Assembly: GCF_014230055.1 (NCBI RefSeq)
Contig: NZ_JACHVA010000111.1
Span: 1 to 33,945, forward strand
Direction: 5' to 3'
DNA: 33,945 nucleotides
Origin: Puniceicoccus vermicola
GTDB taxonomy: Bacteria > Verrucomicrobiota > Verrucomicrobiia > Opitutales > Puniceicoccaceae
A program made the position numbers and the translations under genes. Positions 8,848 through 32,079 of the stretch are shown in pieces (positions within the stretch are counted from its first letter, which is position 1; each line of letters starts with the position of its first letter). The notes under the pieces were generated by a model. It had not been told where the DNA came from and made no database searches. It saw only the letters and a list, made by a program, of their open reading frames with translations.

Positions 8848-8863
8848 TCAATACTGAGAGGGC

Positions 8864-9904: not shown

Positions 9905-9919
9905 AGGTTACTTAAATCG

Positions 9920-9992: not shown

Positions 9993-9997
9993 GAAAT

Positions 9998-12766: not shown

Positions 12767-12833
12767 GACTAATCTTTTTACGCATCTCCACGATACGTGT
12801 ATATTCTTTGTAAGAACTGGTGATGACAAGGCT

Positions 12834-14571: not shown

Positions 14572-14817
14572 ATGAACGCCGGACGACTCGTTTTCACCCA
14601 GGTCATAGATATTCTGGATCCCAAGGAACTGACGCGATGCGTCAATCGCTTTCCGATGCCGAGGGCGAACCGCAAGTTTCCGGCCCGGGATCAATTCCTT
14701 TCCATGGTCTTCGCCCAGCTCACTTACCGGGAAGGATTGCGCGATATCGAAGCCTGTTTGCGGGGGCAACCAACACGCTTACGCTATGAAAGGCACAAAA
14801 AAGACTTCAAGTCTTGA
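14572..14817 (+). pseudogene. Truncated IS4-family transposase (DUF4372 N-terminal domain only)
   Basis: An 81-aa remnant. The first 70 or so residues, MNAGRLVFTQVIDILD ... ARDQFLSMVFAQLTYREGLRDIEACLRGQPTRL, match the conserved N-terminal DUF4372 domain of IS4-type transposases (AQLTYRE-LRDIEACL is diagnostic). Full proteins are several hundred residues long with a DDE domain, none of which is present. After PTRL the sequence no longer resembles the family and stops eleven residues later. AGGAG abuts the ATG. The break near 14785 coincides with a rise in GC content and with a small hairpin at 14801-14815, so it marks a rearrangement point. It is inactive. Confidence 0.82.
14801..14815. repeat. 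Small perfect hairpin at the IS remnant boundary
   Basis: The sequence aagacttcaagtctt has arms aagact and agtctt around tca, preceded by a run of A. It overlaps the last codons of the IS remnant. It could be a weak terminator or a scar of a deletion end. Confidence 0.4.
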
Positions 14818-15542: not shown

Positions 15543-16367
15543 GTGAAAACGCCCCATCGTCTCATTTCACCTACGGCGGCTTCGGCCTTTTTCCTGATTC
15601 CTCAGATTCTTTTCCCGCTGTTTTTGCTGTTCTCCCCGCTCGCCGCGAAGGATGAAGGGCGTCTGAGCGGTTTTCAAGAAGGGTTGCGGCACCCTTCGAA
15701 GGAGACGGACCCCCGGCCATCCCGGGAGGCCACCGTCGGAGAAGAGGCTCTGGCCGAAACGCTTTCCACTTTGATGGGCGGCCTTTTCGTTTCGGGGACG
15801 TTCAACAGCCTCGCCTTGGTCGCCCCGGAATCTGGTCCCGATCGGCCCCTCATGAGCCAACCCCGCGCCCCCGGCGAAGCGGTTCTCCCCTACATCGAGG
15901 GCGAGTTTCAGTACCAATGGGTGGATGGAGACACAGACGCTCTCGATTTCCGGCTCACCGGAGGCTACGGCCCGGCGGGCGCGTCCGTGCGCTGGACTCG
16001 ATTCAGGGAGACTGAGCCCGACACCCGCCTGGACGTTCTCCAAGCCTATGGACACCTCCGCCTCACCTTAGGCAATTTCCTGGAATTTTCCCCAGGCTTG
16101 GGATACGGAAATTTCTCTCTCGGTGACGACGCAGAGGATGAGGGTGGCCTGGCCCTAACCCTCCCCCTTCGTGTTCACTTCCAACCCGGCATCGGTCTAG
16201 AATATCGCCCCGCCTGGGTCTTCCCCAACGGAACGACGGTGAGCGACCAAGAAGTAGCTCTGGTTCTCGGACGCCGCAACGCCTTCCTCCGCCTCGGCTA
16301 CCGATGGCTTTGGAACGAGTCCGAAACCCTCTCCGGCCCCTACCTCGGCGTGTCGTTGCGCTGGTAA
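15543..16367 (+). CDS. Exported outer-membrane-barrel-like protein
   Basis: About 274 aa from GTG 15543; an in-frame ATG at 15501 would add 14 residues and the start is uncertain. The open frame reaches back to 15252, but that part covers the intergenic repeats and is unlikely to be coding. A hydrophobic signal segment (AASAFFLIPQILFPLFLLFS then PLAAKDE) leads into a mature part. From about residue 130 it shows alternating amphipathic strands separated by polar turns: YIEGEFQYQWVDG, DFRLTGGYGPAGASVRWTRF, LEFSPGLGYGNFSLG, PGIGLEYRPAWVF, AFLRLGYRWLWN. The protein ends GPYLGVSLRW with a terminal aromatic residue, typical of outer-membrane beta-barrels. It converges with the CsgG-like gene, with a hairpin between. 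The family is not recognised; a small porin or barrel partner of the exported proteins nearby is an inference. Confidence 0.62.
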   Translation: MKTPHRLISPTAASAFFLIPQILFPLFLLFSPLAAKDEGRLSGFQEGLRHPSKETDPRPSREATVGEEALAETLSTLMGGLFVSGTFNSLALVAPESGPDRPLMSQPRAPGEAVLPYIEGEFQYQWVDGDTDALDFRLTGGYGPAGASVRWTRFRETEPDTRLDVLQAYGHLRLTLGNFLEFSPGLGYGNFSLGDDAEDEGGLALTLPLRVHFQPGIGLEYRPAWVFPNGTTVSDQEVALVLGRRNAFLRLGYRWLWNESETLSGPYLGVSLRW

Positions 16368-16394
16368 GTTTGCGGGAGCCGCGTAGGAGTTCCG

Positions 16395-16416
16395 TAGGAA
16401 TGGCTATCGCCATTCC
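16395..16416. repeat. REP-like hairpin between convergent genes
   Basis: AGGAATGGC and GCCATTCCT are perfect 9-base complements around TATC. It lies between the barrel-like gene (+) and the CsgG-like gene (-), so it could terminate either transcript, although no T run follows. The core resembles dispersed palindromes I associate with Opitutales intergenic regions; this could not be checked here. Confidence 0.55.
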
Positions 16417-16565
16417 TCTCCGAAAAAGGAAAGGCGAAAGACACCAAGCCTGGATTTTTGACAAAAGATTCTATCCCAAGCCCTACCCTACCCCATTCTT
16501 GCGACAGAAACGGGACTCTCCCCTCCACCGACACCAAAGATCGCCCCGAGGGTATTACCCAGCAT

Positions 16566-17522
16566 TTATTGCTCGTTGAGGATGGGCAGGATGTGTTCCA
16601 ATAGAACGAGCGTTCCGTTTTCGAGAGCCAGTTTACCGGCGATGGCTTCCGCGACATCGACAGCCACGGAGACCTGTCGATCGGCCAGCAAAAGTTTTCC
16701 TTCTTCGACCGAAACGACCTCCACCTCAATACGGCTGCGGCAGGAAACCAATCCACCGCGCCGTCCCGCCATTTCACTAAATGCCTCCCCTGTGATCGCG
16801 ATGTCTGCCGGAGAGGTGGACGCATCCTGATTGATCACTTCGAACCCGAGAGCGATTAGCACCTTCTTCATCTCGGTCTCCACGGCGGGATCAATTACCT
16901 GCATGCGGATGTGTTCTTCCACGACATCTACCGAGACTGAGGGAAGATCGCCCGACGGCACGAGTCCGCGAAATCTTTCCAGCATTTCCTCATACGATTC
17001 CACATCGGCAACCAGAACGTCCGCATTCTCTCCCACCGAGTTGTTCAGTTTCTCACCGAGCTCCCCTATCGCTGGCTCCAGGGCGCCGATTTTTTCGAAA
17101 GAAACTTTCTCGGCAATCACTCGGCCGGTTTCGGCACTGATGATACGGGCTACGATAAAAAACCGGTTGCCAGCTTCGAACATGCGCCCGGTTACCAAGA
17201 CTTGCGCTCCGGTAAGTTGGCCCACCGCCGCAGCCGTTTGGGCGCTCACGTTACCGGCCAGGCCAAGCTCTTGTTCAGCAAAAATAGCATCCAACTGTTC
17301 GCGCTCCACGAGAAACAGGTTTTCGGAGCCCGAAAGATCGGCATAGAGCAAAGCCGAGATCTCCGATCCGCGGTCGCCGGGAATCCCCTCGGAGACCTCA
17401 AAATCAAAAACAGCGGCGGTAAGCGGACTTTGAGTCGAGGCACCCACCGCTGCCTGAGAGTGAAACACCAAGCCGATGACGAAGAGGAAAATGAAAGAAA
17501 CAGGGGAAAAATACGATTTCAT
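16566..17522 (-). CDS. Exported CsgG-like protein
   Basis: A 318-aa protein with a signal peptide (FIFLFVIGLVFHSQAAVGA, cleavage about residue 27) and no lipobox Cys, unlike CsgG proper, which is a lipoprotein. The CsgG/LpoB/FlgO-type domain is visible at about residues 34-145: a first strand LTAAVFDFEV, the element LFLVEREQLDAIFAEQELGL, then AVGQLTGAQVLVTGRMFEAGNRFFIVARIISAETGRV. This V-(D/E)-R-x-x-L...EQ signature also occurs twice in each of the three giant proteins nearby. The C-terminal part (about 195-305) forms a second alpha/beta unit containing IALGFEVINQD and ADIAITGEAFSEMAGRRGG. The start overlaps the stop of the upstream gene by ATGA, so the two proteins are made together. A periplasmic or outer-membrane-associated role is inferred; curli export is not implied. 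Confidence 0.75.
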   Translation of the reverse strand: MKSYFSPVSFIFLFVIGLVFHSQAAVGASTQSPLTAAVFDFEVSEGIPGDRGSEISALLYADLSGSENLFLVEREQLDAIFAEQELGLAGNVSAQTAAAVGQLTGAQVLVTGRMFEAGNRFFIVARIISAETGRVIAEKVSFEKIGALEPAIGELGEKLNNSVGENADVLVADVESYEEMLERFRGLVPSGDLPSVSVDVVEEHIRMQVIDPAVETEMKKVLIALGFEVINQDASTSPADIAITGEAFSEMAGRRGGLVSCRSRIEVEVVSVEEGKLLLADRQVSVAVDVAEAIAGKLALENGTLVLLEHILPILNEQ

Positions 17523-18391
17523 GGGACGAGATCAGAGGTTATGGGTTGGACTAGGTAAAGAAGGGTTTTCTGGGCAAAAGGGTCCGTCTGAAGATCTTCG
17601 AGGAGCGGCAAAGTAATCTTCGTCGCCTTGTCTCCAGAACGAGCCGGAGGATAGATTCCTGGCATCAACGCGTCCGGTGGGGCAAACCACAACCAACGGG
17701 CGTCACGGGTTGCACTCCCCGGAGGAACCGTTCCCTCATAAAATACCACGCCTCCAGTCTCCGCGGATGAACCTCCGTCGAACGGAATATCCCAAACGGT
17801 GAAAAACTCCCGGATCCTCGGCGCCTCGCCCTCGACCCGAAACCGGGATGCCTTGGCGGCGCTCCGAAGGGCGGTGATCAAGCCGTCTTCCCCTTCTGGA
17901 TCCGGAAAAACATATCCCGCGATCGTTGCGACCGAGGTTTCGGGATCCGCCCCATCGGTGCGAGTGGCCAAAAAGCGGACAATGACCTTACTCTCCCGCT
18001 CCACTTTGGGGAGTTTTACTACGGCCTCGATACTCTGAGACGAAGATTCCGCGAAACTCACCTCCTCAACCACCACTTGGCGGCCTGCAATCGGCGCTGC
18101 CGAGTTTCCCGAAACTTGCAGCCACTCCGCTTCCAACTTCCAGATCCCTCCCTGCGGACTCTCCATCCGCAGAGGCACCATGATCTCTTCCTCCGCAAAA
18201 CCGCAGACTCCCGTCGCAAAGAAATCCCTACGATCCGGACTCTGCCCCCGTAGTTCAATCGAGGCCTTTTCCGCCTTGCCCAAGAAGGGGATCGCGCAAA
18301 GAAAAGAAGCCCAAAAAACCGCCCTTAGTGGGAGAGAAAGTCCGGCACTGGGGAGAGTTGGAGATTTTGCTGGGCTACGCACGAGCTTCAT
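17519..18391 (-). CDS. Exported protein of unknown function, coupled to the CsgG-like protein
   Basis: A 290-aa protein with an N-terminal signal (PLRAVFWASFLCAIPFLGKA, after a basic stretch). The mature part reads as two beta-sandwich-like halves: EIMVPLRMESPQGGIWKLEAEWLQVSG then VVKLPKVERESKVIVRFLAT, and later REFFTVWDIPFDGG, GVVFYEGTVPPG and ARWLWFAPPDALMPGIY. No catalytic motif is recognised. It ends in LLYLVQPITSDLVP with its stop overlapping the ATG of the CsgG-like gene. That four-base overlap strongly suggests the two products act together, for example as partner proteins in the periplasm. The start is ATG 18391, about 90 bases after the first giant gene. Confidence 0.65.
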   Translation of the reverse strand: MKLVRSPAKSPTLPSAGLSLPLRAVFWASFLCAIPFLGKAEKASIELRGQSPDRRDFFATGVCGFAEEEIMVPLRMESPQGGIWKLEAEWLQVSGNSAAPIAGRQVVVEEVSFAESSSQSIEAVVKLPKVERESKVIVRFLATRTDGADPETSVATIAGYVFPDPEGEDGLITALRSAAKASRFRVEGEAPRIREFFTVWDIPFDGGSSAETGGVVFYEGTVPPGSATRDARWLWFAPPDALMPGIYPPARSGDKATKITLPLLEDLQTDPFAQKTLLYLVQPITSDLVP

Positions 18392-18481: not shown

Positions 18482-21400
18482 CTATTCGGAAGGCTCGACA
18501 AGGGGAAAATGGTGGTCCCATGCGTGTTCCATGATCGCTTCCATTTCCTCCGCAGTGTAGATCGTGAAGCCAAGTGGTGAGTAAAAGAGAACGGCGCCGT
18601 TCTCGCTGACCTTGACCCCCTCCCGTGACGGGTCGGGTGATCGAATCCAGCGGTTCAGGTTTTCCCATTCATCTGGAAGTGGCTCCATGGACTCGGGATA
18701 GTAGGGAAAAGGAATTTCGAACTGGTGTTCTTCGGTAAAGTTTGAGCGGAGGCGCTGTTGTTCGGCAAGGATCTCCGGAGGTGTCCGATAGGCTCTGATC
18801 AAATACTGACCGGAACTCTTGTCGTACCTGGGCTTCAAATAAGTCACTCCTTCGAAGCTGAAACTACCATGACGCTCTCCGCCGCGATTTTCTCTCGCAG
18901 TTTGGATCTCTTCGCGATTGGCCCGACGCCACTCTCCTGTGTTCAAGTTGATGATTTGCCGTAAACCGATCAGAAACTCATCGTTTTCAAGTGATCGAAT
19001 TACAGGCATGTGCGGATCGCCACCCCGCTGGTCGAGAGGAGAGACTGGCGGGACCCGGCGGGTGTCGACCAAGACCCGCTCTTCACCAGAGGCGAGATTA
19101 TAATGCTTAACGACTTCATATCTGGAACCACTTACCGACATCCCGGCTTCTCCCTGATCGACGGTCTGGTCCTGATTCTTTATTAGTGAAAAGACCAGAT
19201 GATCTCCCATCAATGCGGGGGCGTTTCCGTATTGCGGCACACCTTCAAACTTCAATACCTCCCATGATTTCTCAATGCGGTCGTAGATGGCATACCAGGT
19301 TAGCTTCGACGAAATAACTTCAGCCACTATACGCTCTGGAGAGACCACCATTTTTTTCACGAATTTTCCTTTGAGCTCGGGGGGAGGCCGAAGGAGTTGT
19401 TGAAACTTTCCACTGGCATCGAATTGAAGCAAATCGCCAGAATTCAGAACGACCCAAAGCGATTGATCATAATTGCCGAAGTAGGTAGCCTGCGCGTGGT
19501 AGTGACGCGGATTGTCAATGGCTTCTGGAAATTCGAGTGCGGGGATAAAAAAGTCAGCATCCCGGATATAAGGATGAACCGAAAGTTCCACTTCCACTAT
19601 AGAAGAGTCCATTTCGCGGCGCTCCACTTCCTCAAACAGGGAATTGAAAAGACTTGGCCCCCATCCTGTAGGAACCCCCATGCTGAGAAGGCTGCTCTCG
19701 AGCTGATCCGAAAGAGTGGTATCAGCAATTGTCTCTCTCATTTCCGTGCGAATCTCTTCCGCCTGTTCTCGTAGAGAAATCATTGTATCCTGAGAGAGGG
19801 CTCGGGCATGGCTTTCCGGTACCAGTTCATGAGGCGGCCTCCGACGGGGTTGTGTCCCCTGAACCGATTGGATCTTTTGCCAGTGATCGGCCAAGCGCTG
19901 CAACCGAGATCCCATGATGGCTTCATCTCTTTTGAGGCCCTCAGCATCCGTCGCTATCTCCGGGAGCAAGAATCTCTTATCGTCAAATCGGATGCCTGGT
20001 TCCCCTTCGGGCAAGATCTCGTCGGGAAGCGAAAAGGTAACGTCTCGTGGGGGCTGAAGCCTGTTGAAGGTATCATACGATAGTACCGAGAATTCGAGCA
20101 AGCCGGGGATTGCCAGGCTCGGAGTCGGTCGGGAAGTGGTAAAATATCCGAAATCTCCGATGTATTCCCTCAATCTCTGTTCCGCCTCTAGCCCTTCCAT
20201 AAGGGAACGCCACTGTTCCATTTGCTCTTCTGGATTCCTCTTGTCTATCGCAAGTCGGTTTACCGGCATGGCAATATGGTTCGCCAGAAGTCGAACGTTT
20301 GCGAATTGACTCTCTCGCATCTCGTTCAGAGACCGATGCCAAAAGTTTTCGGCGTAGGCGGATACTCGCCAGCCATCTTCGTTTTCGTAGATATACTGCA
20401 GTGTATTGAAGAATGCATAGGAGATGTTCTCCATTTCAGGTCGGTGGATCTGCTCGAGGATTTTTTTTCGCTCGCGAATGGCTTCGGCCTCATCGTCCGT
20501 CCAGTAGGGAATCGAACGATAGCGCATCGTCAGAAGTTCACCTCGAAGAATCGGGAGATCGATCTCCCCGGCCCATTGAATCGCTTCATTGGTCAATGAG
20601 TTCAGGCGAGCACGCAACGACTCAATTTGATGTCCATGTTTGTCCCGATCAGAAAGCGGAGTGAGTAATTCGAGAACAGAGTTTGCGATGTAGAAGATCA
20701 GATTGATGCTGTTCAGTTCACCGATGTCGTCCTGAATATTGGTTCGGTTCGACTGTATATAGTCCTCAATCTGATCGAGCAGCATGTGGGCAATATCGAT
20801 AAGCCTCTCCACTTCAGCGTCGTAAGCGAATCGAGAGAGCGACAATGGGGGCCATGCGAGAAACTCCATTCGACCGGGAACTTCGGACTGATCCTGAATC
20901 TCGCGAATCTGTTGCAATATATCTGTGCCGGATTGGATGATCGCTTGCCGAATTCGGGAACTCCGAACGCCGAGAGCGTAGGCTGTGCGCAACGAAGCCA
21001 GCGCGTACGTATGCAGACCCGCGCGACTCGCCTCCAGTCCCCTTTGAAGAAAAATCTGCCCTTCGATATCGGCCGCGTCGGGATCCATTGGAGTCAGAGA
21101 CTTTTCAAGAATCGCGGCTGCAGCCGCATCAATCAACGACCCGGGATCCGAAGAATCTCCCACAAGTGTGGTTCTTTCTTCTTCCTTCCCCGTTCCACGC
21201 TGCAGGCGGAGCCTCAGAACCCACTCGCCCGATTCGTTTCCCGGCTCCAATGAGCCGTCAACAATCCAGGCTGAGCGGTAGAATTCGGCGGCCTCTTGGG
21301 TCAGGCCCTGTTCGAGCTGGAGGCGTTGCAATTCGTGGCGATCCAAAAGAAACACGCCCGGCTCGCCCCCGAGCCGGTAACCGAGAGCCAGAGTCAACTG

Positions 21401-22936
21401 GTCGGCGACCCTCGCCAGCCCGCTCGATCCAGTGGTGCCAATTCGTGGGATGGAGATAAGGGTGGCCTCCTCCGGATCGATCTGGAAGCGATGGAGATTG
21501 CCGAGGATGCCATAGGCCGCTACTTCGTCGATCCAGGCATTGAAATCGCCTCCACCGGTGTAGTAATGGGTCGAGAGGATGAGTCCGGTGGATGTGGAGA
21601 CCACGCGCACTTCGTAATGATTGCCCAATGAGCGCAGATAAAGCAGTGCGTCAGCGCCCACTAAGGAGCCAATGCGATTGGTGCTGCCCGTGGACAATCT
21701 AGATTCAAGCAACCGCTCATCCACCAATTTTTGCAGCTGCCTACGATCAACTAGATCGATGGCGGTCTCCTCGGATAGTCGGGCCTCCAGTAATGCGGTC
21801 GACTCCTCCAATCCTGCACTCTGTTGGATGATGGCGACACGCAAGCTGGAGTCCTCCGCTTGGGTTTCAGACCTCTGAACAGAAGGGCGGAAGGCATTTA
21901 GAAGTGTGCCCAGCTCCCGGGAGTATGAATCGGGGTTATGGGCCTCGGCCTCCCCGGCGGAGCCCGCAAGTTGACGAAAAGGCTCTAGGCGAAGAAACTC
22001 ATAGGGCTCGGGTCGCTTGGATCCAGCAGCAAGCAACCGATCGTAGATGGCTTTGTTCCCCAGTGCATCGGCCCAAAGGATGGCGGCATCATTGTCCGCT
22101 TTTGGATCAACACCAGCTTCCAGCAAACGTTCCACCATGGGAAGATTGTGAGTCATAACCGCAGAGACCAAGGGGCGTCCCAAGTCGAAGCGATGTCGAC
22201 TTAAAAATGCTCCTTTAGCCACGTCTAGATCCAGACTAAAACCCCGTTCGATCAGCTTTTTTAGAGCTTTTTGATTATCGTAATAGACCGCAATTGTGAC
22301 GGCCGATGGGTGGATCGCACCCCAATTTTTTTGCAGAAGAAAATTAACCATTTCATGATTATGCTCAATGATGGCTTGTTCCAGATTCACGGCGTACATG
22401 CTTCGAATTTGTGGGAGAAGGCCAATCTCTGCGCAGTATTCCAAAAGCTCAGGCTCCGCCCGCGAAATATAAACGGCCCATGGGCTCCAGAAACGGTTGT
22501 TCGCTATGTATCCTTTCAGCTGTTCCGAACTCCCACGAATGTACGCTTGCAGAGTTTCCAAATCGCTCTGGAGCGCAGCCCCGAAATCCTCATCTAGCAG
22601 GTGACTCCCGTCACTGCCTTTCTCCCAGTCGTACCCTTGGTCGGCAAGAAGTTCCACAATCTCGGGCTGCTTGGCACTGATGGCATGCCACATCAGGGTA
22701 CGTCTGTCTCCATCAATTTGATCCACCGGAATCCCCTTCTCCAGCCCGGCGATCACTCCTTCAGCATCGCCGAGCCGAACGGCATAGATCAGATCGATGA
22801 AATCATCTTCCGTGATTTCTTCGGAGGCAGCGGCAGTGAAAGACTGCAGTGCGGCACACAGTAGCAGAAGTCGCTTCAGTAGACTCAATATCTTCGAAAC
22901 AGAGTTTGAAACATGCAGAGAGGTGGCCGGATACAT
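18482..22936 (-). CDS. Giant exported ankyrin / double CsgG-like / TPR / propeller protein, copy 1
   Basis: A 1484-aa protein from ATG 22936. The frame is open to 23083, but alignment with copy 3 and the position of the signal peptide (SKILSLLKRLLLLCAALQSF, cleavage near TAAA-SEE) favour 22936. Domains in order: degenerate ankyrin repeats, about 42-316 (DGDRRTLMWHAISAKQPEIV, AAILWADALGNKAIYDRLLA); a CsgG-like domain, about 355-450 (LRVAIIQQS, IDLVDRRQLQKLVDERLL, GADALLYL); a second, about 480-600 (LISIPRIGTTGSSGL, VFLLDRHELQRLQLEQGL, WIVDGSL); a TPR-like helix pair, about 617-650 (FLQRGLEASRAGLHTYALAS); a long helical region with HELVPESHAR; then a beta-rich, propeller-like end with RRVPPVSPLD at about 1293 and GFTIYTAEEMEAIMEHAWD. 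It is expected to lie in the periplasm or outside the cell. It is about half identical by eye to copy 3 and more distant from copy 2. Confidence 0.78.
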   Translation of the reverse strand: MYPATSLHVSNSVSKILSLLKRLLLLCAALQSFTAAASEEITEDDFIDLIYAVRLGDAEGVIAGLEKGIPVDQIDGDRRTLMWHAISAKQPEIVELLADQGYDWEKGSDGSHLLDEDFGAALQSDLETLQAYIRGSSEQLKGYIANNRFWSPWAVYISRAEPELLEYCAEIGLLPQIRSMYAVNLEQAIIEHNHEMVNFLLQKNWGAIHPSAVTIAVYYDNQKALKKLIERGFSLDLDVAKGAFLSRHRFDLGRPLVSAVMTHNLPMVERLLEAGVDPKADNDAAILWADALGNKAIYDRLLAAGSKRPEPYEFLRLEPFRQLAGSAGEAEAHNPDSYSRELGTLLNAFRPSVQRSETQAEDSSLRVAIIQQSAGLEESTALLEARLSEETAIDLVDRRQLQKLVDERLLESRLSTGSTNRIGSLVGADALLYLRSLGNHYEVRVVSTSTGLILSTHYYTGGGDFNAWIDEVAAYGILGNLHRFQIDPEEATLISIPRIGTTGSSGLARVADQLTLALGYRLGGEPGVFLLDRHELQRLQLEQGLTQEAAEFYRSAWIVDGSLEPGNESGEWVLRLRLQRGTGKEEERTTLVGDSSDPGSLIDAAAAAILEKSLTPMDPDAADIEGQIFLQRGLEASRAGLHTYALASLRTAYALGVRSSRIRQAIIQSGTDILQQIREIQDQSEVPGRMEFLAWPPLSLSRFAYDAEVERLIDIAHMLLDQIEDYIQSNRTNIQDDIGELNSINLIFYIANSVLELLTPLSDRDKHGHQIESLRARLNSLTNEAIQWAGEIDLPILRGELLTMRYRSIPYWTDDEAEAIRERKKILEQIHRPEMENISYAFFNTLQYIYENEDGWRVSAYAENFWHRSLNEMRESQFANVRLLANHIAMPVNRLAIDKRNPEEQMEQWRSLMEGLEAEQRLREYIGDFGYFTTSRPTPSLAIPGLLEFSVLSYDTFNRLQPPRDVTFSLPDEILPEGEPGIRFDDKRFLLPEIATDAEGLKRDEAIMGSRLQRLADHWQKIQSVQGTQPRRRPPHELVPESHARALSQDTMISLREQAEEIRTEMRETIADTTLSDQLESSLLSMGVPTGWGPSLFNSLFEEVERREMDSSIVEVELSVHPYIRDADFFIPALEFPEAIDNPRHYHAQATYFGNYDQSLWVVLNSGDLLQFDASGKFQQLLRPPPELKGKFVKKMVVSPERIVAEVISSKLTWYAIYDRIEKSWEVLKFEGVPQYGNAPALMGDHLVFSLIKNQDQTVDQGEAGMSVSGSRYEVVKHYNLASGEERVLVDTRRVPPVSPLDQRGGDPHMPVIRSLENDEFLIGLRQIINLNTGEWRRANREEIQTARENRGGERHGSFSFEGVTYLKPRYDKSSGQYLIRAYRTPPEILAEQQRLRSNFTEEHQFEIPFPYYPESMEPLPDEWENLNRWIRSPDPSREGVKVSENGAVLFYSPLGFTIYTAEEMEAIMEHAWDHHFPLVEPSE

Positions 22937-23218
22937 GAGGGCACGGAGAGGATACCGAATAACCCTACAGCACTTGGTTTTTCGCGCAAGCTCCATATTT
23001 GGATCGAAATTGAACTGGCAAAACATGGCCAATTTCCTACAACGAATAAGATAGAGCAGCCAAAATTGCATGCAGTTACCCAATCTTCTCTAGTTTCCCC
23101 CTTTCGAAACCGTTGAGGAAACTCTACCGCTCTGTCAGCGAACCTTTTCAGGCATCTCGACCCGAAGCTAGAATCACCCCCGAAACCACTCCAAGCGCTC
23201 CCTGGAAGACCGAAAAAC
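22937..23218. promoter_or_regulatory. Divergent intergenic region between giant genes 1 and 2
   Basis: About 280 bases between the proposed divergent starts, so both promoters should be here. I see no unambiguous -35/-10 pair. A ggaag (23204-23208) precedes the copy 2 ATG at suitable distance. The stretch gcacggagag next to the copy 1 start contains one unit of the CACGGAG repeat found at 15.3 kb. Confidence 0.4.
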
Positions 23219-26200
23219 ATGATTCGAAAACCATCCGTTCGGTCGCATTCCGCTCGACCACCTCACTTCAAAGGGTTCGCGAAGATCCTTTTTGCCGTGG
23301 TCGCCTCCCTCTCGCCCATCTGCCTAACGGCAGAATCCAATTTGCCATCGCCCCGCCAGGTCCATATCGACTTTCTAGAAGGGATTATGTCCGGCGATAT
23401 CGCAGCCATGCAACGCGCCTTCGCTGCCGGAGCAACCCTTGAAGATGCCAGCGAATTCGGCGGAAAACCACCGATCTCTTACGCCATCCAATATAATCAA
23501 ATCGAGGCCCTCCGTTGGCTGCTCGAAAATGGTGCGGATGTTGAAACTTTCTGTTATTCTCCAAATCCTCAAGACTCCCTATTGAATCGCGTCTCGCCAC
23601 TCACGCTGGCGATCACCCTGCAACGCCAAGAGATCATTCAAGAACTCCTCCGGCAGGATGCCTCGATCAAAGCGATTGAAGGCAGCACCCGATCCCCCGC
23701 TCATGCGGCTCTCGCGGTCGGAGGTCCCCAACTCCTCCAGCAGCTCGAACAACTGGGGGTCAACTGGAAGGCGCCCCTCAGCGATAGAAGGCATCCATTG
23801 ATGTGGGCGATCCTCAATAACAATGTCGAAGCGATCGAATTTCTAGTCGACGGCATAGCCGATCCCAACGCACCCCTGAACAACGGGAATTTTCCTCTCG
23901 CCGAGGCCGCCGCGATCGGGAACCCCGATGCGCTGCACGTCCTCCTCGATCATGGTGCCGATCCCAATGCCGTTAGCAAAAACAAGCCGATGATCCGATA
24001 CGCACAACCTCTTCCTCATACCGCCCTCATCAACGCAATCCGGCGTAACAGCCAAGCCTGCGTCGAAGTTCTCCTCCAAGCCGGAGCAGATCCCCAGGCC
24101 CTCGACAACGCCGCGATTAAATGGGCCGACCTCCTCGGCCATCAAAACATCTACGAACTCCTCCTCAAAAACGGTGCACCGAAGCCCGCGCCCTACGCAT
24201 TCCTCGACCTTCCCCAGTTCCGCGGCGTCGAGCGCGCCTCCGCGCGTCGGAAAAGCTCCTCCGCCAATCGGCCCCTCTTATCCGCCATTACCCGCACTCC
24301 GGAAGGATCCCCTCTCACCCCGGAGGAGCCTGTCACTCTTGCCGTCATCACGCGTTCCGACGGCACCGAAGAAGTCGCCGAACTTCTAGGCGTCGGGCTC
24401 TCTGAAGTTCCCGGAATCAACCTCGTCGAGCGAGAAGAACTGCGGTTGCTCAACAGGGAACAAGTCATCTCGAAAAGCACATTTTTCGATCCTTCCACCG
24501 CTGCCCGGAGCGGCCAACTGGAGGGAGCCGATGCCGCGGTGTTCCTCACCCGCACCGCCGATGCTATTGAGCTGCGCACCGTTGCCGCATCCTCCGGCCT
24601 CGTCCTCCACAACACAACTCTCTCCACCTCCGCATTCAACGAGGAAACCGTCCAACAGCTCGTGCGCTCCGTTGCACATGCCACCCACCGCCTATCCGAC
24701 GACCTCTCCGAGCAACTCCTCGTCTCCCTGCCGAACCTCATTCCATCCCGCAGCACGCCCGAGGGTGACCGACTGACCCGGCGAATCTCCTCCGGCCTCG
24801 CCATGGTCCTCGGTGCCCAACCCAATCTCCACGTCCTCGATCGCAGCGAATTGCAACGTCTTTCGCTGGAAAAAGGCCTCAATTCCGATGTCGCCGAATT
24901 CTTCCAAAGTGGTCTCGTAATCGATGGCGGGCTCGAATTCGCGGTGGACGGCACCGATAGCCTCATTCTGAACCTGCGCGCCAGGTCGCTCGATGGCACG
25001 GAGATCGCATCGACTTCAACCCCCGGACTCATGTCCGGTCCCAGTAAACTCGTCATCGAAGCGACCTCCTCCCTGCTGACCCAATTGAGAAACACGGATC
25101 CTGTCGTCACTGGCGACACTTCCGAGGCCTCCGCGTATTTTGCACAAGCCCGCACCGCATTCGACAGTCATATTTGGTCAGAGGCCCATGCCCTGCTGCA
25201 AGCCGCCGAGGGATTGGGGCAAACCGGCGATGATTTTCTCAAGTTTCGCATCCTCACCATTTGCAAACTCTTCCAATCCGACCTTCGGAACGTCCAGAGA
25301 TGGCAAAACGAGACGGGGAAGTCAGAACTCGATATTCTTGTCCGCTGCGCGCCGCTGGAGTTTCTTCCCGATCCATTCATCTCCCGTCAGTCAGGAGACT
25401 ACCTCGAATTGGCTCTCGAACTCCTCGACCTGTCCGCACCGATCATTTACAGCGACAAAAAACCTACACCTACCGAACAAATATTCTGGGGATATCTACC
25501 GGAAGTCTTCGAATCCGCCAACACCCCGCTGGAGCTCATGCTCTCACTCTCCGATCAACAAGCCTACCCCGAGGAGATCGCCGAACTGCGCAGCAAGCTT
25601 CTCCATCAAACCGAAGTTGTCATCCAGAAGGCCGAAGACTGGCAATTCACCCAAGTCTACTGCAGGCTCATCCTTCTCCGCGCCCGCCTCCTTCGCTACT
25701 GGATCACGGATGAAAACGAGGTTATCGAGCAAACACTACAAACGGTAGCTGAAGCCCACGAACTCGCCCCGCCCTACATCCTGCACACATTGATCAATGA
25801 GATCGTCGGCGAAGGCTACCTCTTCTATTTTCCGCGCCTCATTGGGAGCCGCATCAGCACATTTAACGGTCGGCTCGCCGCCGCTCTCGCTACCAGCGAC
25901 TATCCCCACGCTCGCTGGCAGGGTGCGACAAAAATGCTGAAATGGGATCGAGGCTTCAAAAATCATCTTCGCTGGACCGAAATCATCGCAGATTTCTTTG
26001 ACGAACTATACGTCTACGACCCATCACCCGAAGGTCTTCTTCTCTTCGACGAGCCGTATCTTCTTCAGTCCGCCGATTACGACGCCAGCAAACCCCCGAG
26101 GTCAGACGAACCATGGTATCAACACCCCCCCGATACCATGCACCATTACCAACCTATATTTTATCATGTGCACCCCGATCCCGACTCAAACCGATCCAAA

Positions 26201-27589
26201 GAGGTCTATGCGCCTATCGCCCAAGAATGGCTAATCGATCTTGAGACGAAACGCCTTGAATTTCTCGCGAAGAATGGAGCTGGCCCCTTTAGCACACTCG
26301 TATCCAGCAGAAATCTTCCTTACTCGGAGCGCGATCCCGATATGCTCTCCGAACAACTCGAATTGGCCGAAACCGCTCTGCAGCAATTTTCTCCCCAAAA
26401 CTCCGATTCCAGCAAAAGATGGGCCACAGCGAGTTTTGAGCGTCGCGCAGTCAAACCGAGGCGAGAGGCCCTCGCCCCCGATACTCCGCTCACGAGGCTG
26501 CCAATCACTACTGTGGCCGGCTTCCTTCCCGAACACATTGAACCCTTTCGGGGCCTCGCCGTTCTCGACAAGAATAAATCCCTCAGCATGAACCGTAAAT
26601 CGGGAGGAAATCAGAATATCTGGATCACTCTGCGGCGTGGAGGCTTCTTTGAAATCTCACCCCAAGGAACGGTCGCACGCTCCCTCAGGTTTCCCGGCGG
26701 GAATCAAAGAGGGATACTCTTCGCGGCAGACGATCAATACTTGATCGCCAGTTTTAACCACCCGGAATCCGGTATTAATGAGGTTTCCGCCTACAACTTT
26801 GCCTCAAAATCCTGGAAGATCCTCACCAAAGAGGAAAAAATCCCGCACGCAGTGACGCTCCATGGAGATTTCGCTTTGTTTATCTTTATACGGAGTCCGA
26901 AATCTGCCGACTCCATGGTCAAAGAAGAAAACACCACCTACTCTCTCGAACTCATCAATCTCACAACCAATGAACGCCACGTCCTGATTAGCAGTCGACG
27001 CGTACCACCTCAGTCTCCATTGGATAACGACTACCTCAAAATTTTGGGTAGACCTCCCGTTTTATTGTCCGATCACGAACTTTTTATCGAGAACTTCGTT
27101 TATCATTTACAGGCCCACACTTGGCGAAAGAGCTCCAACGAGGAACGCCAAAAAGTCAAAATACTCCGCACTCCGACTCATCTGTGGAACCTTGAGCCCT
27201 GGTTAGGGAGCCCCCAAACGCCGATCCACAACCCGAACACTGGGCTGTGGAAATTTCCAGTCCGTATTTCAGAGCCCACGATCCATGAAAGAACTGGCAA
27301 GCTCTTTTGGGATTCAAAAATGTACGACATAGACGTTCCCGTCCATCGAATCATCTTGCCCGGCGGAATCCCCGGACTCTCTGAAGCCGAAGTCGCAACA
27401 CTCACAGCGCCGGGATCCCTCCACTACGAAACGGTCCCCCAAGGTCTCCTCGCGTTCAATGATCGCATCGTCGCACTCATTCCAAAGGAAACGCTACTTC
27501 CCCATATTCTTCAAAGGCTCGAAGATCTGAACGTCCCGAAAAAAGACGACGCACCCCGACAGCCAACAGCAACCTCTACATCACGATAA
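23219..27589 (+). CDS. Giant exported ankyrin / double CsgG-like / TPR / propeller protein, copy 2 (divergent)
   Basis: A 1456-aa protein with a basic N-terminus and signal segment (FAKILFAVVASLSPICLTAES, cleavage near TA-ES, about residue 38). The ankyrin repeats at about 48-320 are clearer than in the other copies (ALRWLLENGADVET, ALHVLLDHGADPNAV, CVEVLLQAGADPQALDNAAI). A CsgG-like domain lies at about 372-470 (VTLAVITRSDG, INLVEREELRLLNREQ, GADAAVFL) and a second at about 500-600 (LVSLPNLIPS, LHVLDRSELQRLSLEKGL, LVIDGGLE). A TPR-like pair at 636-665 (YFAQARTAFDSHIWSEAHAL), a long helical region and a C-terminal propeller-like part follow, with RRVPPQSPLD at about 1260 and WRKSSNEE. The last 100 residues differ from the other copies. 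Codons end in C more often than in copies 1 and 3. Its stop is 5 bases from the stop of copy 3, tail to tail. Function unknown. Confidence 0.8.
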   Translation: MIRKPSVRSHSARPPHFKGFAKILFAVVASLSPICLTAESNLPSPRQVHIDFLEGIMSGDIAAMQRAFAAGATLEDASEFGGKPPISYAIQYNQIEALRWLLENGADVETFCYSPNPQDSLLNRVSPLTLAITLQRQEIIQELLRQDASIKAIEGSTRSPAHAALAVGGPQLLQQLEQLGVNWKAPLSDRRHPLMWAILNNNVEAIEFLVDGIADPNAPLNNGNFPLAEAAAIGNPDALHVLLDHGADPNAVSKNKPMIRYAQPLPHTALINAIRRNSQACVEVLLQAGADPQALDNAAIKWADLLGHQNIYELLLKNGAPKPAPYAFLDLPQFRGVERASARRKSSSANRPLLSAITRTPEGSPLTPEEPVTLAVITRSDGTEEVAELLGVGLSEVPGINLVEREELRLLNREQVISKSTFFDPSTAARSGQLEGADAAVFLTRTADAIELRTVAASSGLVLHNTTLSTSAFNEETVQQLVRSVAHATHRLSDDLSEQLLVSLPNLIPSRSTPEGDRLTRRISSGLAMVLGAQPNLHVLDRSELQRLSLEKGLNSDVAEFFQSGLVIDGGLEFAVDGTDSLILNLRARSLDGTEIASTSTPGLMSGPSKLVIEATSSLLTQLRNTDPVVTGDTSEASAYFAQARTAFDSHIWSEAHALLQAAEGLGQTGDDFLKFRILTICKLFQSDLRNVQRWQNETGKSELDILVRCAPLEFLPDPFISRQSGDYLELALELLDLSAPIIYSDKKPTPTEQIFWGYLPEVFESANTPLELMLSLSDQQAYPEEIAELRSKLLHQTEVVIQKAEDWQFTQVYCRLILLRARLLRYWITDENEVIEQTLQTVAEAHELAPPYILHTLINEIVGEGYLFYFPRLIGSRISTFNGRLAAALATSDYPHARWQGATKMLKWDRGFKNHLRWTEIIADFFDELYVYDPSPEGLLLFDEPYLLQSADYDASKPPRSDEPWYQHPPDTMHHYQPIFYHVHPDPDSNRSKEVYAPIAQEWLIDLETKRLEFLAKNGAGPFSTLVSSRNLPYSERDPDMLSEQLELAETALQQFSPQNSDSSKRWATASFERRAVKPRREALAPDTPLTRLPITTVAGFLPEHIEPFRGLAVLDKNKSLSMNRKSGGNQNIWITLRRGGFFEISPQGTVARSLRFPGGNQRGILFAADDQYLIASFNHPESGINEVSAYNFASKSWKILTKEEKIPHAVTLHGDFALFIFIRSPKSADSMVKEENTTYSLELINLTTNERHVLISSRRVPPQSPLDNDYLKILGRPPVLLSDHELFIENFVYHLQAHTWRKSSNEERQKVKILRTPTHLWNLEPWLGSPQTPIHNPNTGLWKFPVRISEPTIHERTGKLFWDSKMYDIDVPVHRIILPGGIPGLSEAEVATLTAPGSLHYETVPQGLLAFNDRIVALIPKETLLPHILQRLEDLNVPKKDDAPRQPTATSTSR

Positions 27590-27594
27590 ATCCG

Positions 27595-30500
27595 CTATTC
27601 AGGCGTTTCGGCGAGTGGAAAATAGAAATCCCATGCGTGCTCCATGATCGCTTCGACCTCCTCAGGGGTATAGATGGTAAAACCGACGGGGCTACTTGCC
27701 AAAATAGCGCCGTTGTTGCTTACGTGAAAACCGAGCTTGGATAAAATCGGGCGTTCGATCCATTTATTGATTGCTTTCCATTGCTCAGGAAAAATCTCTC
27801 TTGTTTCTGGCTCGTAGAAAAAAGGGATTTTCAATTGATGCTGGGCAGTGAAGTCGGGTCGTAGCGGTTGGTGTTCTTGAACCACCGAGTTCGATGGGGT
27901 TCTGGCGTGAAAATCAAGATAGTCGTCATCGTCTTGAAAACGTGGAAAATGTGGAATTGCGTAGATCATGCCTCGGAATTCGAGCTCAAAACTATAATGA
28001 TTACGCTTTAGGGGATCGGCATTTGCATGCTTGATTTCTTCGCGATTCGCACGCCGCCATTTCCCGGTTTTAAGGTCGATAATTTGTTTTTTTGCTATAA
28101 GAAACTCGTCGCCTTTCAGGGGGTCGATTCTGGTCAAATCGAATTGTTCCTCCTGGTCCAAGGGCGAGATCGGCGGGACCCGTCGGGTGTCTACCAGAAC
28201 CTCTTCGTCGCCCGTGATGAGATCGTGCTGCACAATCACTCTATATCCGGAATGGTTTACTGGGCTCCAACCTCCTCCTCCGCCCGTCACCCATTCTCTG
28301 TCTTTGTGTATGGAGAAAACTAAATAATTCTTCTCCAATCCTGTATCGATTACCAAACCCTCGTGCTCAAGTACGCTCCAAGTTCCATGGTTACGGTTCA
28401 GAATTGCATGCCAGGATGTGTCTTTTGACCGGCCGAAGTCTGAATGATCAAAAGATGCTATGACATAATCCGGAGTGATATGCAGAAACTCTGTCGCGCC
28501 CATGATACTGAACTGGTCGGGGAATTTGAAGAAATTTTCGAGATGGCCTTTAGGGTTTAGTTGAAGGACACCAAATCTGTATAGATTGATCCAATAGGAA
28601 CCATCACGAAAGGCAAAGAACACGACGAAACTCGAAAAACCTCGGGGATCATCAATGTAGTCAGATAATTCCTTGGCTGTGACAAAAGAATCCGTCGCTT
28701 TGATACCCTGAAGAGTGGGTTGCTTTAGACTTTCTCGTTCAGAGATCGATTCCCTTCGTCTGATCTCTTCATGAATAGGACTACTATTGTCCGTTAAAAG
28801 AAGTGGGCTGTAAAATAGCTTCCGTTCTGATTCGTCTGTAATCTCATTTAGTATTTCATTGTAAATACGTGCGGTCTTGTCTCTCCAACCCTCCAAGGTT
28901 GCAAGGGGATAGATTCGTAAGTGGCTTGCCGGCACAAGTTCATGTGGCCGAAATCGAGACCGTCCGGCCTCTATCGCGGGGTAAAGATTTTGCCAGTATT
29001 GGGCGAGGCGTTGCAATCGGGAATTGATAACGATCTCGTCTCTTTGGATACCTTCTTGGTCCAGAGCAAATTCTGGAAGCAAGTTGTGCACCGATTTGAA
29101 AGTAAGAGCAGACCGTTGTCCTGTAGGATGGATCTCCTGAGGCATCCTAAACATGGTTTCTCGGGGAGGCAGAAAGCGATCCGCACTAAGATGCCAACCA
29201 ATGTTAAAAAACTTACGCCCCGCTCCTCCCAATTCCAAAGGATCATGAGATGGTCTTATAAGGGAGAAATTGACAAAATCACCCGCAAATTCACGTTTGC
29301 GAAAATCCGTTTCCACTGCCTCGTTTAGCCTCCGCCACTGTTCCATTAGAGATTGCGGCGAGTTCGATTGTTGGTGTCTTTTGATGTTACGGTTGCTTCT
29401 GTTCAGATAGTTGACGAGTAGATGGACATGAGGATATTCGCTTTGCTGCATTCTTTTTAAATAACGACTCCAGAAAGTCATGGCATATGATGCTCTTGCT
29501 ACAGGAATGAACATGCCGTAAGCACTCTCCAATTCGTTGAAAAACGGGTAAAGAAAAGCTTCCAGCTCGGGCTCATGAATTCTGTCAAAAACTTGATCCA
29601 TCTCGCGCATGGCCTCCGCCTCGTCGTCCGTCCAGTAAGGGATCGAAGCAAAGCGCATGATCAGCAGTTCTCCTTGAAGCAATCTCAGATCCTTCTTTCC
29701 CGCCCAATCGATGGCTGTTTCGGAGAGTGAGTCCAACCGATTTCGCAGTGCGGAGATTTGCTGACCATGATGATTCCGATTCGAGAGCGGCGAGAGCAAT
29801 TCGAGGACCGAATTCGCATTGTAGAAAGCATACGGAAGATAACTCAGATCGTTGATATCGCCTTTCTTGGTCGCTTGATTTCTCCGAAGGCAAACTTCCA
29901 CTTGATCCAGCAGGAGATTGGCAATGTCGATTAGATCTTCGACTTCCGAATCATAGGCGAATCCGGAGAGGGAATAAGCGGGCCAAGTCAAATACTCCAA
30001 ATAACTCAAATCTATTTCTAGATTATTGATCGTAACCAGTTGGTTTCGCACCTCCATTAGACTGCGAATGCATGATCGGATCGTCGCATCCCATAGATCT
30101 TTCTTTTCGTAACCGAGGGCCGAGGCGGTGCGGAACGAGGCCAACGCATATCCGAATAAACCGGCTCGGTGCGCTTCCAGCCCCCGCTCGAAAAAGAGGC
30201 GCCCTTCGGTGTCCGTTTCATCAGAATCAAGACTTGTGATATCGCGATCCAAAAGGGCTTCTACAATCGCTTCGACCATAGGTTGTGGATTCTCAATATC
30301 GGCTTCCAAGACGATCCTTTCCTCCTCCCTTCCCAGACCGCGTTGCAGCCGAATCTCGAGGATAAGTTGCTCTGGATCCTCCGCCCGGTCCATGAACCCG
30401 TCAATTACCCAAGCCGAACGAAAGAACTCGGATGTTTTCTGGGCCAGTCCCTGTTCAAGGGTTAAGCGCTGAAGCTCATTCCGATCCAACAGAAAGATGT

Positions 30501-32079
30501 TGGGTTCTTTCCCCAGTCGATAGCCCAGCAGAACGGCGAGCTGGTCGGCGAGACTCTCTAGTCCACTCGATCCGTTCGTGCCGATCCGCGGAATGGAGAC
30601 AAGAAGGGCATCCTCTCCCGTCACGCGAAGACGAGCTTCATTGTTCCGCACACCTTTTTCAACCACCTCCTTCGTCCAAGAGTCGAAATCCGATTCCCCC
30701 GTGTAGAAGTACGTCGCAAGGATCAATCCGGTCGCCGTTGAGACGATTCTCGCTTCGATAGTAGCCTCTATTTTTCTAAGATAGAGTATGGCATCGGCCC
30801 CCGTAAGCGCACCCAATTCGGAGGCGACCTCACTTGCAAATTCGGCCCGGAGGCTGCGTTCACCCATCAGGACCCGCAGTTGGGATCGATCCACAAGAGT
30901 AATGTCAGGTGTCTTCGATAAGGTCGCTTCCAACAAAAGGGCCGGGTCGTCAAGTCCCTCGCTTAGCTGGATAATTCCAACCTTGATGGGCCTTCCGTCG
31001 GGCTGCAGCACCGAGTCATCATTCTCGCTTTGCAGAGAATTGAGGATCGAACCAAGCTCCCAGGAGTAGTTTTCGCGTTTCACGGGACGATTCTCATTCG
31101 ATGCAGAAAGCAAATAAGTGAATGGCTCGTAATCGAAGAATGCGAAAGGTTCCGGCTCTTCCGCTCCAGCGGCAAGCAAGCGATCATAAATAGCTTTGTT
31201 CCCCAACGCGTCGGCCCAAAGAATCGCCGCATTATCATTCGCGCCCGGATCGACGCCGGCTTCCAGGAAACGCTCCACCATGGAAAGGTTGTGAGCCATA
31301 ACCGCAGATACCAAAGGACTTCCTAATTCAAAGCGTACGCCCCGTAACGAAACGCCCTCATGCATGCCTTGATCGAGGCTGAGCCCTTTCTCGATAAGCT
31401 TCTCGAGTGCAATCTCATTGTCGTAATAGACTGCGACTGAAACGATCGACGGGTGGATCCTCGCCCAGTTTCTCCGCAGTAGAAAATCTACCATTTCATT
31501 ATTATGATTGATGATGGCGTGTTCGAGAACCTCTGCGTACATTCGCTGACTTTGCGGGAGGAGGCCGATCTCCACACAGTATTCCAAAAGCTCAGGATCG
31601 GCTCGCGAGATCTGCTCGGGCCAATCACTACCCCTCTGTCGATATCCCAAAATCTCTTCCACAGCCTCCGAACCTTCACGGACGTAGAGTTGCAGGGTTT
31701 CCAAGTTGCTCTGGAGTGCAGCCCCAAAATCTTCTGTGACCGGCGATCGTCCGTCGCTCCGTGAACTCCAATCGTAACCTCGATCCGCCAGAAGCTCCAT
31801 GATTTCAGGCTGTTCAGCGCTGATGGCGTGCCACATCAGTGTGTGGTAGTCCCCGTCGATCTGACCGACCGGTATCCCCTTGTCGAGTCCGGCGATCACT
31901 CCCTCGGCATTGCCGAGGCGGATCGCATAAATCAGATCGATGAAATCATCCTCAGTGATTTCCGAGGAGGCTTCCACGGAGAGGGACTGCAGTGCCGCAC
32001 ACAACGCCACGAGCCTCAGCAATGAGTTCAATATCTTCGAAAAAAATGGGGGGACAGACTTAAACTTGGGATGATTCAT
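27595..32079 (-). CDS. Giant exported ankyrin / double CsgG-like / TPR / propeller protein, copy 3
   Basis: A 1494-aa close relative of copy 1. Signal segment: FFSKILNSLLRLVALCAALQ, cleavage near VEA-SSE (about residue 38). Ankyrin-type repeats span about 45-305 and again end in AAILWADALGNKAIYDRLLA. CsgG-like domain I is about 365-465 (IKVGIIQLSEG, ITLVDRSQLRVLMGERSL, GADAILYL). Domain II is about 490-600 (LLVSIPRIGTNGSSGL, IFLLDRNELQRLTLEQGL, WVIDGFMD). The TPR-like part is about 627-655 (LFFERGLEAHRAGLFGYALA). The long helical region includes RSIPYWTDDEAEA, which has a near-identical counterpart in copy 1. The C-terminal part has RRVPPISPLD at about 1299, WRRANREE, and the same GFTIYT.EE.EAIMEHAWD ending. 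The start is ATG 32079; no clear ribosome binding site. Its 3' end carries the same 13 bases across the stop codon as copy 1. Function unknown. Confidence 0.8.
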   Translation of the reverse strand: MNHPKFKSVPPFFSKILNSLLRLVALCAALQSLSVEASSEITEDDFIDLIYAIRLGNAEGVIAGLDKGIPVGQIDGDYHTLMWHAISAEQPEIMELLADRGYDWSSRSDGRSPVTEDFGAALQSNLETLQLYVREGSEAVEEILGYRQRGSDWPEQISRADPELLEYCVEIGLLPQSQRMYAEVLEHAIINHNNEMVDFLLRRNWARIHPSIVSVAVYYDNEIALEKLIEKGLSLDQGMHEGVSLRGVRFELGSPLVSAVMAHNLSMVERFLEAGVDPGANDNAAILWADALGNKAIYDRLLAAGAEEPEPFAFFDYEPFTYLLSASNENRPVKRENYSWELGSILNSLQSENDDSVLQPDGRPIKVGIIQLSEGLDDPALLLEATLSKTPDITLVDRSQLRVLMGERSLRAEFASEVASELGALTGADAILYLRKIEATIEARIVSTATGLILATYFYTGESDFDSWTKEVVEKGVRNNEARLRVTGEDALLVSIPRIGTNGSSGLESLADQLAVLLGYRLGKEPNIFLLDRNELQRLTLEQGLAQKTSEFFRSAWVIDGFMDRAEDPEQLILEIRLQRGLGREEERIVLEADIENPQPMVEAIVEALLDRDITSLDSDETDTEGRLFFERGLEAHRAGLFGYALASFRTASALGYEKKDLWDATIRSCIRSLMEVRNQLVTINNLEIDLSYLEYLTWPAYSLSGFAYDSEVEDLIDIANLLLDQVEVCLRRNQATKKGDINDLSYLPYAFYNANSVLELLSPLSNRNHHGQQISALRNRLDSLSETAIDWAGKKDLRLLQGELLIMRFASIPYWTDDEAEAMREMDQVFDRIHEPELEAFLYPFFNELESAYGMFIPVARASYAMTFWSRYLKRMQQSEYPHVHLLVNYLNRSNRNIKRHQQSNSPQSLMEQWRRLNEAVETDFRKREFAGDFVNFSLIRPSHDPLELGGAGRKFFNIGWHLSADRFLPPRETMFRMPQEIHPTGQRSALTFKSVHNLLPEFALDQEGIQRDEIVINSRLQRLAQYWQNLYPAIEAGRSRFRPHELVPASHLRIYPLATLEGWRDKTARIYNEILNEITDESERKLFYSPLLLTDNSSPIHEEIRRRESISERESLKQPTLQGIKATDSFVTAKELSDYIDDPRGFSSFVVFFAFRDGSYWINLYRFGVLQLNPKGHLENFFKFPDQFSIMGATEFLHITPDYVIASFDHSDFGRSKDTSWHAILNRNHGTWSVLEHEGLVIDTGLEKNYLVFSIHKDREWVTGGGGGWSPVNHSGYRVIVQHDLITGDEEVLVDTRRVPPISPLDQEEQFDLTRIDPLKGDEFLIAKKQIIDLKTGKWRRANREEIKHANADPLKRNHYSFELEFRGMIYAIPHFPRFQDDDDYLDFHARTPSNSVVQEHQPLRPDFTAQHQLKIPFFYEPETREIFPEQWKAINKWIERPILSKLGFHVSNNGAILASSPVGFTIYTPEEVEAIMEHAWDFYFPLAETPE

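Follow-up and report, generated by a model that had tools for sequence, protein, structure and literature searches.

The window, by which we mean the whole analyzed stretch of 33,945 nucleotides from Puniceicoccus vermicola, contains three neighboring genes for giant proteins, P0001, P0002 and P0003 (giants 1 to 3; Table 1). The start of P0001 is taken as the methionine at residue 50 of a longer ORF (18482-23083). P0003 is 48% and P0002 26% identical to P0001 in an alignment along the full length, and the 245 invariant columns of the 1642 in this alignment are spread along the length. Judged from their sequences, the three giants are paralogues. The ORF lengths and the full-length alignment bear out an earlier sequence-only reading, according to which three adjacent genes share one domain order. 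That reading also placed the ankyrin repeats, which are usually cytoplasmic, behind a signal peptide. In agreement with export, all three giants have a signal-peptide-like N-terminus according to a hydropathy heuristic (not SignalP), and each exceeds the curated Pfam Ank_2 cut-off of 27.3 bits. A hydropathy scan finds no 19-residue segment above a mean of 1.35 after the N-terminus of the three window giants, and a pattern search finds no lipobox in them.

Two smaller genes lie beside giant 1. P0004, which codes for a secreted protein of a family we call P4, begins 90 bp after giant 1 on the same strand and overlaps by 4 bp with P0005, the gene for a C-type protein; giant 1, P0004 and P0005 probably form an operon. 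P0004 is without a Pfam match, and the P4 family yields one weak Pfam match among 33 members and no credible relative in the PDB (best E 0.026, lactoferrin). The same gene order is present in the congeneric genome G001 at locus L020 (giant 9020-13489, P4-like gene 13510-14340, C gene 14321-15271). A second pair of a C gene followed by a giant gene, here without ankyrin, encodes 317 and 1074 aa in the window's own genome and 308 and 1061 aa in G001.

Table 1. Positions of the cassette genes and their domains in the window.
Feature	Position	Strand	Description or basis
Giant 1 (P0001), 1484 aa	18482-22936	-	signal peptide - ankyrin - CsgG-like x2 - TPR-like - propeller
Giant 2 (P0002), 1456 aa	23219-27589	+	domain order as in giant 1
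Giant 3 (P0003), 1494 aa	27595-32079	-	domain order as in giant 1
P0004, P4-type secreted protein	17519-18391	-	BLAST cluster with 29 loci
P0005, C-type protein, two CsgG-fold domains	16566-17522	-	Pfam CsgG and AF2 model
Ankyrin region, giant 1	21989-22816	-	Pfam Ank_2 39.3 bits; limits approximate
Ankyrin region, giant 2	23366-24193	+	Pfam Ank_2 89.9 bits; limits approximate
Ankyrin region, giant 3	31135-31947	-	Pfam Ank_2 30.1 bits; limits approximate
CsgG-like x2, giant 1	20921-21880	-	family profile 315 bits, ORF residues 402-721
CsgG-like x2, giant 2	24293-25270	+	family profile 296 bits, residues 359-684
CsgG-like domain 1, giant 3	30622-30996	-	AF2 model residues 18-142 and hhalign to C family
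CsgG-like domain 2, giant 3	30244-30612	-	AF2 model residues 146-268 and hhalign
TPR-like helical region, giant 3	29284-30213	-	AF2 model residues 279-588; core profile against TPR structures, E 2e-12
WD40-like beta-propeller, giant 3	27646-28701	-	AF2 model residues 783-1134

Domain composition of the C protein and the giants

P0005 matches Pfam CsgG with 44.3 bits, above the cut-off, over profile positions 33-98 of 210 only, and all 44 C-family members scanned match this profile at E<=0.01. Its AF2 model (pLDDT 91.3) predicts two compact CsgG-fold domains with three-strand meanders, loops of 2-5 residues and no inserted hairpins; the three strands of the second domain are 14-15 residues long. 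The N-terminus of P0005 resembles a signal peptide and has no cysteine in its region, and among 44 members of the C family a lipobox pattern occurs in two and any cysteine within the first 45 residues in 15.

Domain 1 of P0005 is closest to FlgT, the flagellar H-ring or LPHT ring protein (3w1e, 8z5n; Z 13.8, rmsd 2.5, 128 residues aligned), tied with the N domain of TolB from the Tol-Pal system (Z 13.7), while domain 2 is closest to CsgG, the curli secretion channel (4q79, Z 12.4). A FlgT-type fold is thus present (P0005 residues 30-168 against 3w1e), although identity over the aligned stretch is 16%. The top Foldseek match of P0005 (residues 32-166, E 2.7e-6) is CT253 of Chlamydia trachomatis, also a PVC bacterium (6uxc; Z 12.5 over domain 1). 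CT253 differs in that its solved chain has 163-172 residues, of which one domain aligns at 13-16% identity, and it is titled a hypothetical protein. Ribosome-biogenesis proteins among the structure matches of P0005 were taken as chance.

In the giants, Pfam CsgG scores of 9.5, 18.4 and 14.9 bits for P0001, P0002 and P0003 stay below the cut-off of 20.8 and would, taken alone, provide a lead only. Across the family, 19 of 30 giants match PF03783 (CsgG) at E<=0.01 (best 3.8e-8). Profile-profile comparison with hhalign relates giant domain 1 (99.4%, E 7e-22) and giant domain 2 (97.1%, E 5e-11) to the first domain of the P0005 family and the two giant domains to each other (95.1%, E 3e-8); it detects no relation of either to the second domain of C. 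A profile search of structures gives a marginal match of the giant domains to solved CsgG (best E 0.27). Among the Foldseek matches listed for the giant model, the sole one passing E 0.001 is an apocarotenoid oxygenase, and the only one of CsgG-like fold in the 50 rows is the lipoprotein GNA1162, at a weak E of 0.086. Hence, the CsgG-like identity of the giant domains rests on the profiles.

For P0003 residues 345-1494, the AF2 model has moderate confidence (pLDDT 67.4, pTM 0.67). It arranges, in order, two alpha/beta domains, a helical solenoid, an unreliable stretch comprising much of model residues 588-782, and a propeller; the first alpha/beta domain has the same order of elements as in C. 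P0003 residues ~1127-1478 align to WD40 propellers (best WDR26, 8qe8; Z 13.4, rmsd 4.2, 228 residues aligned), and the propellers of P0001 and P0002 are assigned through their alignment to P0003, the one giant in which this part was modeled. The two CsgG-like domains per giant, the TPR-like region and the propeller-like C-terminus of the sequence-only reading are therefore in line with the family Pfam and profile-profile matches, the match of the core profile to TPR structures and the WD40 alignment, respectively.

A recurring cassette with a variable giant family

The three giants belong to a wide cassette of PVC bacteria that includes P4 and C genes. A profile of the C family finds 123 relatives in genome contigs. 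The best 80 of these 123 were kept, and their record titles name Verrucomicrobia, Planctomycetes, Kiritimatiellae, Lentisphaerae, Omnitrophota and a few others. In Verrucomicrobiota, Planctomycetota, Kiritimatiellota and Omnitrophota, giants are repeatedly found beside a C gene of ~310 aa, which usually follows a secreted P4 protein of ~280 aa. P4 lies directly upstream of C in 51 of the 80 loci, at a median spacing of 6 bp (n=51; <=50 bp in 49 of 51). A giant is found anywhere in 48 of the 80 C loci, within three genes of C in 46, and adjoining C on the same strand in 30; 32 loci have none. Among the 35 loci with at least 6 kb available on each side of C, 28 have a giant and seven have none. 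Two or more giants occur in 18 of 80 loci and two or more C copies in seven of 80. An ECF sigma gene lies upstream of C on the same strand in 33 of 80 loci, and a short transmembrane (TM) protein (ANTI or its counterpart k6) is present in 32 of 80, typically just after the sigma gene.

With G for the giant and SIG for the sigma gene, the order SIG-ANTI-P4-C-G is found at L054, L072 and L046, and the order G-P4-C at L028 (after SIG-ANTI), L038, L044 and L057. The window cassette has the G-P4-C order without SIG and ANTI. Copy numbers range from one to six for C and from one to three for giants. Six tandem C-type genes (305-354 aa) follow a single P4 gene at L032:4404-10852, a locus without a giant.

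Presence of the cassette is patchy. At E<=1e-10, matches are found in 40 of 384 genomes of the class and 83 of 387 of the phylum, numbers that take in genomes with C alone and should not be read as numbers of giants; the congeneric G002 matches neither the C nor the giant profile at this threshold. Gene clusters were built via BLAST linkage at 40% query coverage. From each of 10 other recurrent neighbor families, a single representative was compared with Pfam: five are a histidine kinase, an ABC transporter, PSCyt2/PSD1, DUF1501 and a sulfatase, the others an IS200-type transposase, a transketolase and three without any Pfam match. None of these representatives matches a barrel, secretin, curli or flagellar family, and by the Pfam matches of one representative each, none of the 10 families looks like a part of the cassette.

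A restriction of the giants to the genus was considered and rejected. A first profile, built from the window paralogues alone, matched over most of its length only the own genome and G001, and a deeper profile found the wider family; the apparent restriction thus reflects a limit of sensitivity. The full giant alignment as query found no relative in the genome contigs, and the query with the CsgG-like C family was productive. If every ORF of 750 aa or more with a match to the CsgG x2 profile, in some cases over only part of it, is called a giant, there are 73 giant ORFs in 52 of 86 loci examined.

The conserved core of the giants is made up of the two CsgG-like domains, the TPR region and the propeller, and ankyrin is an optional N-terminal extension, because Ank_2 is matched at E<=0.01 by eight of 30 scanned giants (the three of the window, that of L020 in G001, and one each at L036, L075, L077 and L078) and the L037 giant has Sel1 repeats where other giants have ankyrin. 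A later Pfam scan confirmed ankyrin in the second giants of L075 and L077. L077, from Verrucomicrobiaceae bacterium E54, thereby has a C gene and two ankyrin giants, and L065, from Geminisphaera colitermitum TAV2, has a C gene and a TM protein. A search for homologs by domain order had been suggested along with the sequence-only reading; indeed, the arrangement of ankyrin ahead of the CsgG x2 core is also found beyond the window's genus, at L036, L075, L077 and L078. In a tree of 47 CsgG x2 regions, ankyrin giants stand in three places and require three changes. A tree constrained to group all 10 ankyrin giants is not rejected (p-AU 0.166); repeated gain of ankyrin is therefore not established, and a single origin stays compatible with the data. 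Further add-on domains in family giants are an EF-hand in three of 30 and PA14 in one of 30.

A hydrophobic N-terminal segment (13-residue mean hydropathy >=1.5) is present in 68 of 73 giant ORFs. The starts of the five exceptions are doubtful because three overlap the preceding gene and one is cut by a contig end, and start positions are rough in general, as genes were called greedily as the longest ORF. Ten of the 73 giants, none of them in the window, have a later 19-residue segment with a mean hydropathy of 1.61-1.93 that could be a TM helix, and five of 73 have a lipobox pattern.

Sigma factor genes, short transmembrane proteins and a promoter-like motif

All five ECF proteins tested match Pfam sigma-70 r2 and r4 above the cut-offs. 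ECF genes occur in 22 of 48 loci with a giant vs 11 of 32 without, which suggests an association of the sigma gene with the cassette and no clear one with the giant. The window's own cassette has no ECF sigma gene. The short TM protein is probably the anti-sigma factor of the linked ECF; all five TM proteins tested are without a Pfam match, and the label thus rests on position and topology. A single-TM family of ~200 aa directly follows ECF sigma genes (L066:3466-4122 and relatives), is likewise without a Pfam match in all four members tested, and has a conserved domain after the TM segment (FP-x-Q-L-x-A-V, FSGQ). These proteins may constitute an undescribed anti-sigma family. The TM profile matches none of G000-G003, G041 and G368, of which the last two carry a C gene; it does match G057 and G071, whose sequences are both in the profile.

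A promoter-like motif is common to the sigma genes and some P4, C and giant genes. A search for two-part motifs in 24 regions upstream of sigma genes with a neighboring TM gene returns AAGGA...GTCT in eight, vs 4-5 occurrences of the best two-part motif in each of 10 shuffles. The consensus CAAAGGAT-N14-CGTCT scores at least 11/13 in 15 of 24 sigma upstreams, the same set from which it was learnt, vs 0.62 expected from first-order Markov shuffles. An initial scan across every gene in the loci (250 bp, spacer 13-18) gives 37 of 880 genes that reach 11, namely 17 sigma genes, 16 P4, C or giant genes and four others. Loci L023 and L024, which duplicate L070 and L066, were kept in this 880-gene background and left out of the sigma set and of a narrower test. 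The narrower test (150 bp, spacer 13-15), with the threshold of 11 fixed after the initial scan in which the four other genes also reached it, finds the motif before 13 of the 237 genes for P4, C or giants and before none of the 571 other genes (Fisher p 9e-8) or the 31 genes for TM proteins. Forty shuffled-consensus controls give 0-6 (median 1). Lowering the threshold to 10 removes the significance of this difference (21 of 237 vs 32 of 571, p 0.12).

The motif precedes P4 at L027, L028, L031 and L044 and a giant at L058, and at L028, L031 and L058 it also precedes the sigma gene. At the P4 gene of L032, the sigma-type motif attains the full score of 13/13. The five window genes, the L020 giant and the C genes of L021 and L022 are without the motif (best 9/13). 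Since the TM protein was not found in the window's genus and the cassette there has no sigma gene, P4, C and giants of this genus are presumably controlled otherwise.

Possible roles in the envelope

PVC bacteria have an unusual and poorly understood cell envelope. We see an even chance that the P4, C and giant genes form an exported accessory envelope cassette of these bacteria, at the head of which an ECF sigma gene and a short TM protein are often found. The best reading of this cassette is a periplasmic scaffold complex, often sigma-controlled, that may work like FlgT or TolB assemblies. The analogy is drawn from FlgT-, TolB-, PelC- and LpoB-type proteins, which have this fold and are components of rings or envelope complexes in the periplasm. 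The TM protein would sense a periplasmic condition and release the sigma factor, which would raise the expression of P4, C and giants. C might build a soluble core in the periplasm, comparable to the role of FlgT- and TolB-type domains in other envelope assemblies, and giants might dock on it via their two homologous CsgG-fold domains. Docked giants would then hold out their TPR and propeller arms, and any ankyrin or Sel1 arm, toward client proteins or the cell wall, with paralogous giants as alternative client adaptors on one core. Tentatively, and with less confidence than in the cassette as such, this could amount to a PVC-specific envelope machine, often under its own sigma factor, in which paralogous giant arms on the C core are swapped as adaptors for different periplasmic clients. 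The sequence-only reading had tentatively regarded the trio as a complex with variant subunits. Its paralogy holds, while the idea of a stand-alone trio does not, given that P0004 and P0005 belong to the cassette and ankyrin is optional.

The same reading left open a sensor, a scaffold or a secretion-type complex, of which we favor the scaffold. CsgG has inserted membrane-spanning beta-hairpins. If C formed an outer-membrane ring of this type for the export of a substrate, and the giants acted in the periplasm as its gate or as adaptors, the Pfam CsgG match throughout the C family and the alignment of C domain 2 with its three long strands to CsgG would be expected. However, the P0005 match covers a limited part of the profile, P0005 appears to differ from CsgG in its modeled compact domains without pore inserts, P0005 and the three window giants lack a lipobox (found in few C-family members), and the recurrent neighbor families include no barrel or secretin by their representatives. 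A secretion channel is thus not supported and quite improbable. A sensor role, in which the giants bind an envelope or extracellular ligand through propeller and ankyrin arms and pass their state to the TM protein, so that the cassette is its own signaling receptor, would fit the frequent sigma and TM genes, the motif that sigma genes have in common with P4, C and giant genes, and the conserved domain after the TM segment. Yet 22 of 48 giant loci have neither a sigma nor a TM gene, though some contigs end early, and the TM profile has no match in G000-G003; we consider this role unlikely. Repeat arms, divergent tandem copies in loci with two or more giants and patchy occurrence could also point to fast-diversifying exported interaction proteins against competitors or phage, with paralogous giants as specificity variants. 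Against this, no toxin or immunity domain is found among the 25 listed of the 28 Pfam families matched by 30 giants, and all PADLOC matches are to models of ankyrin type (PDC-M72A in 8 of 30, 'Ankyrin' in 4 of 30, MzaA in 1 of 30), the P0003 match falling within its ankyrin region; such a function seems very improbable.

The periplasmic scaffold reading relates the cassette to known systems without identifying it with one of them. The flagellar setting of FlgT differs, as no neighbor-family representative matches a flagellar family, and the giants differ from FlgT by additional TPR, propeller and ankyrin parts. In TolB this fold is coupled to a beta-propeller, as seems to be the case in the giants; the giants, however, have two such domains and a TPR region between them and the propeller. 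The giant propeller matches WD40-type proteins, and TolB is not among the best 50 matches listed, which excludes nothing. Within the openly licensed full texts, a scope that leaves aside subscription papers and preprints, no description of such a system appears among the matches listed, in agreement with the claim of the sequence-only reading that the combination belongs to no described system. The folds are known, and as far as these searches of openly licensed literature go, there is no description of their combination, of the P4 and TM families or of the sigma link. The function of the cassette could still place it in a known kind of system. An exported cassette of several genes that recurs, often together with a sigma factor of its own and a predicted promoter, provides a concrete handle on the PVC envelope, and the motif predicts a testable regulon. 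Moreover, the giants retain one core order across several phyla and are a case of ankyrin repeats on exported proteins.

Adjoining the cassette in the window is a barrel-like ORF ending in Trp, P0011 (15252-16367, + strand). It was rejected as an outer-membrane partner because, of four genomes checked (the own genome, two of the same genus and one of the same family), only the own genome has it. Short ORFs at 15128-16464 on the minus strand look like antisense frames and were dropped. An IS-type transposase lies at the left edge of the window, beside an ORF of 1056 aa (966-4136, + strand) without a Pfam match at E<=0.01. The region 4880-14216 encodes a sulfatase, a GH130 protein, a LacI-type regulator, a CBM9 protein with a weak GH42 match and a PATR-repeat protein, and resembles a polysaccharide-use cluster.
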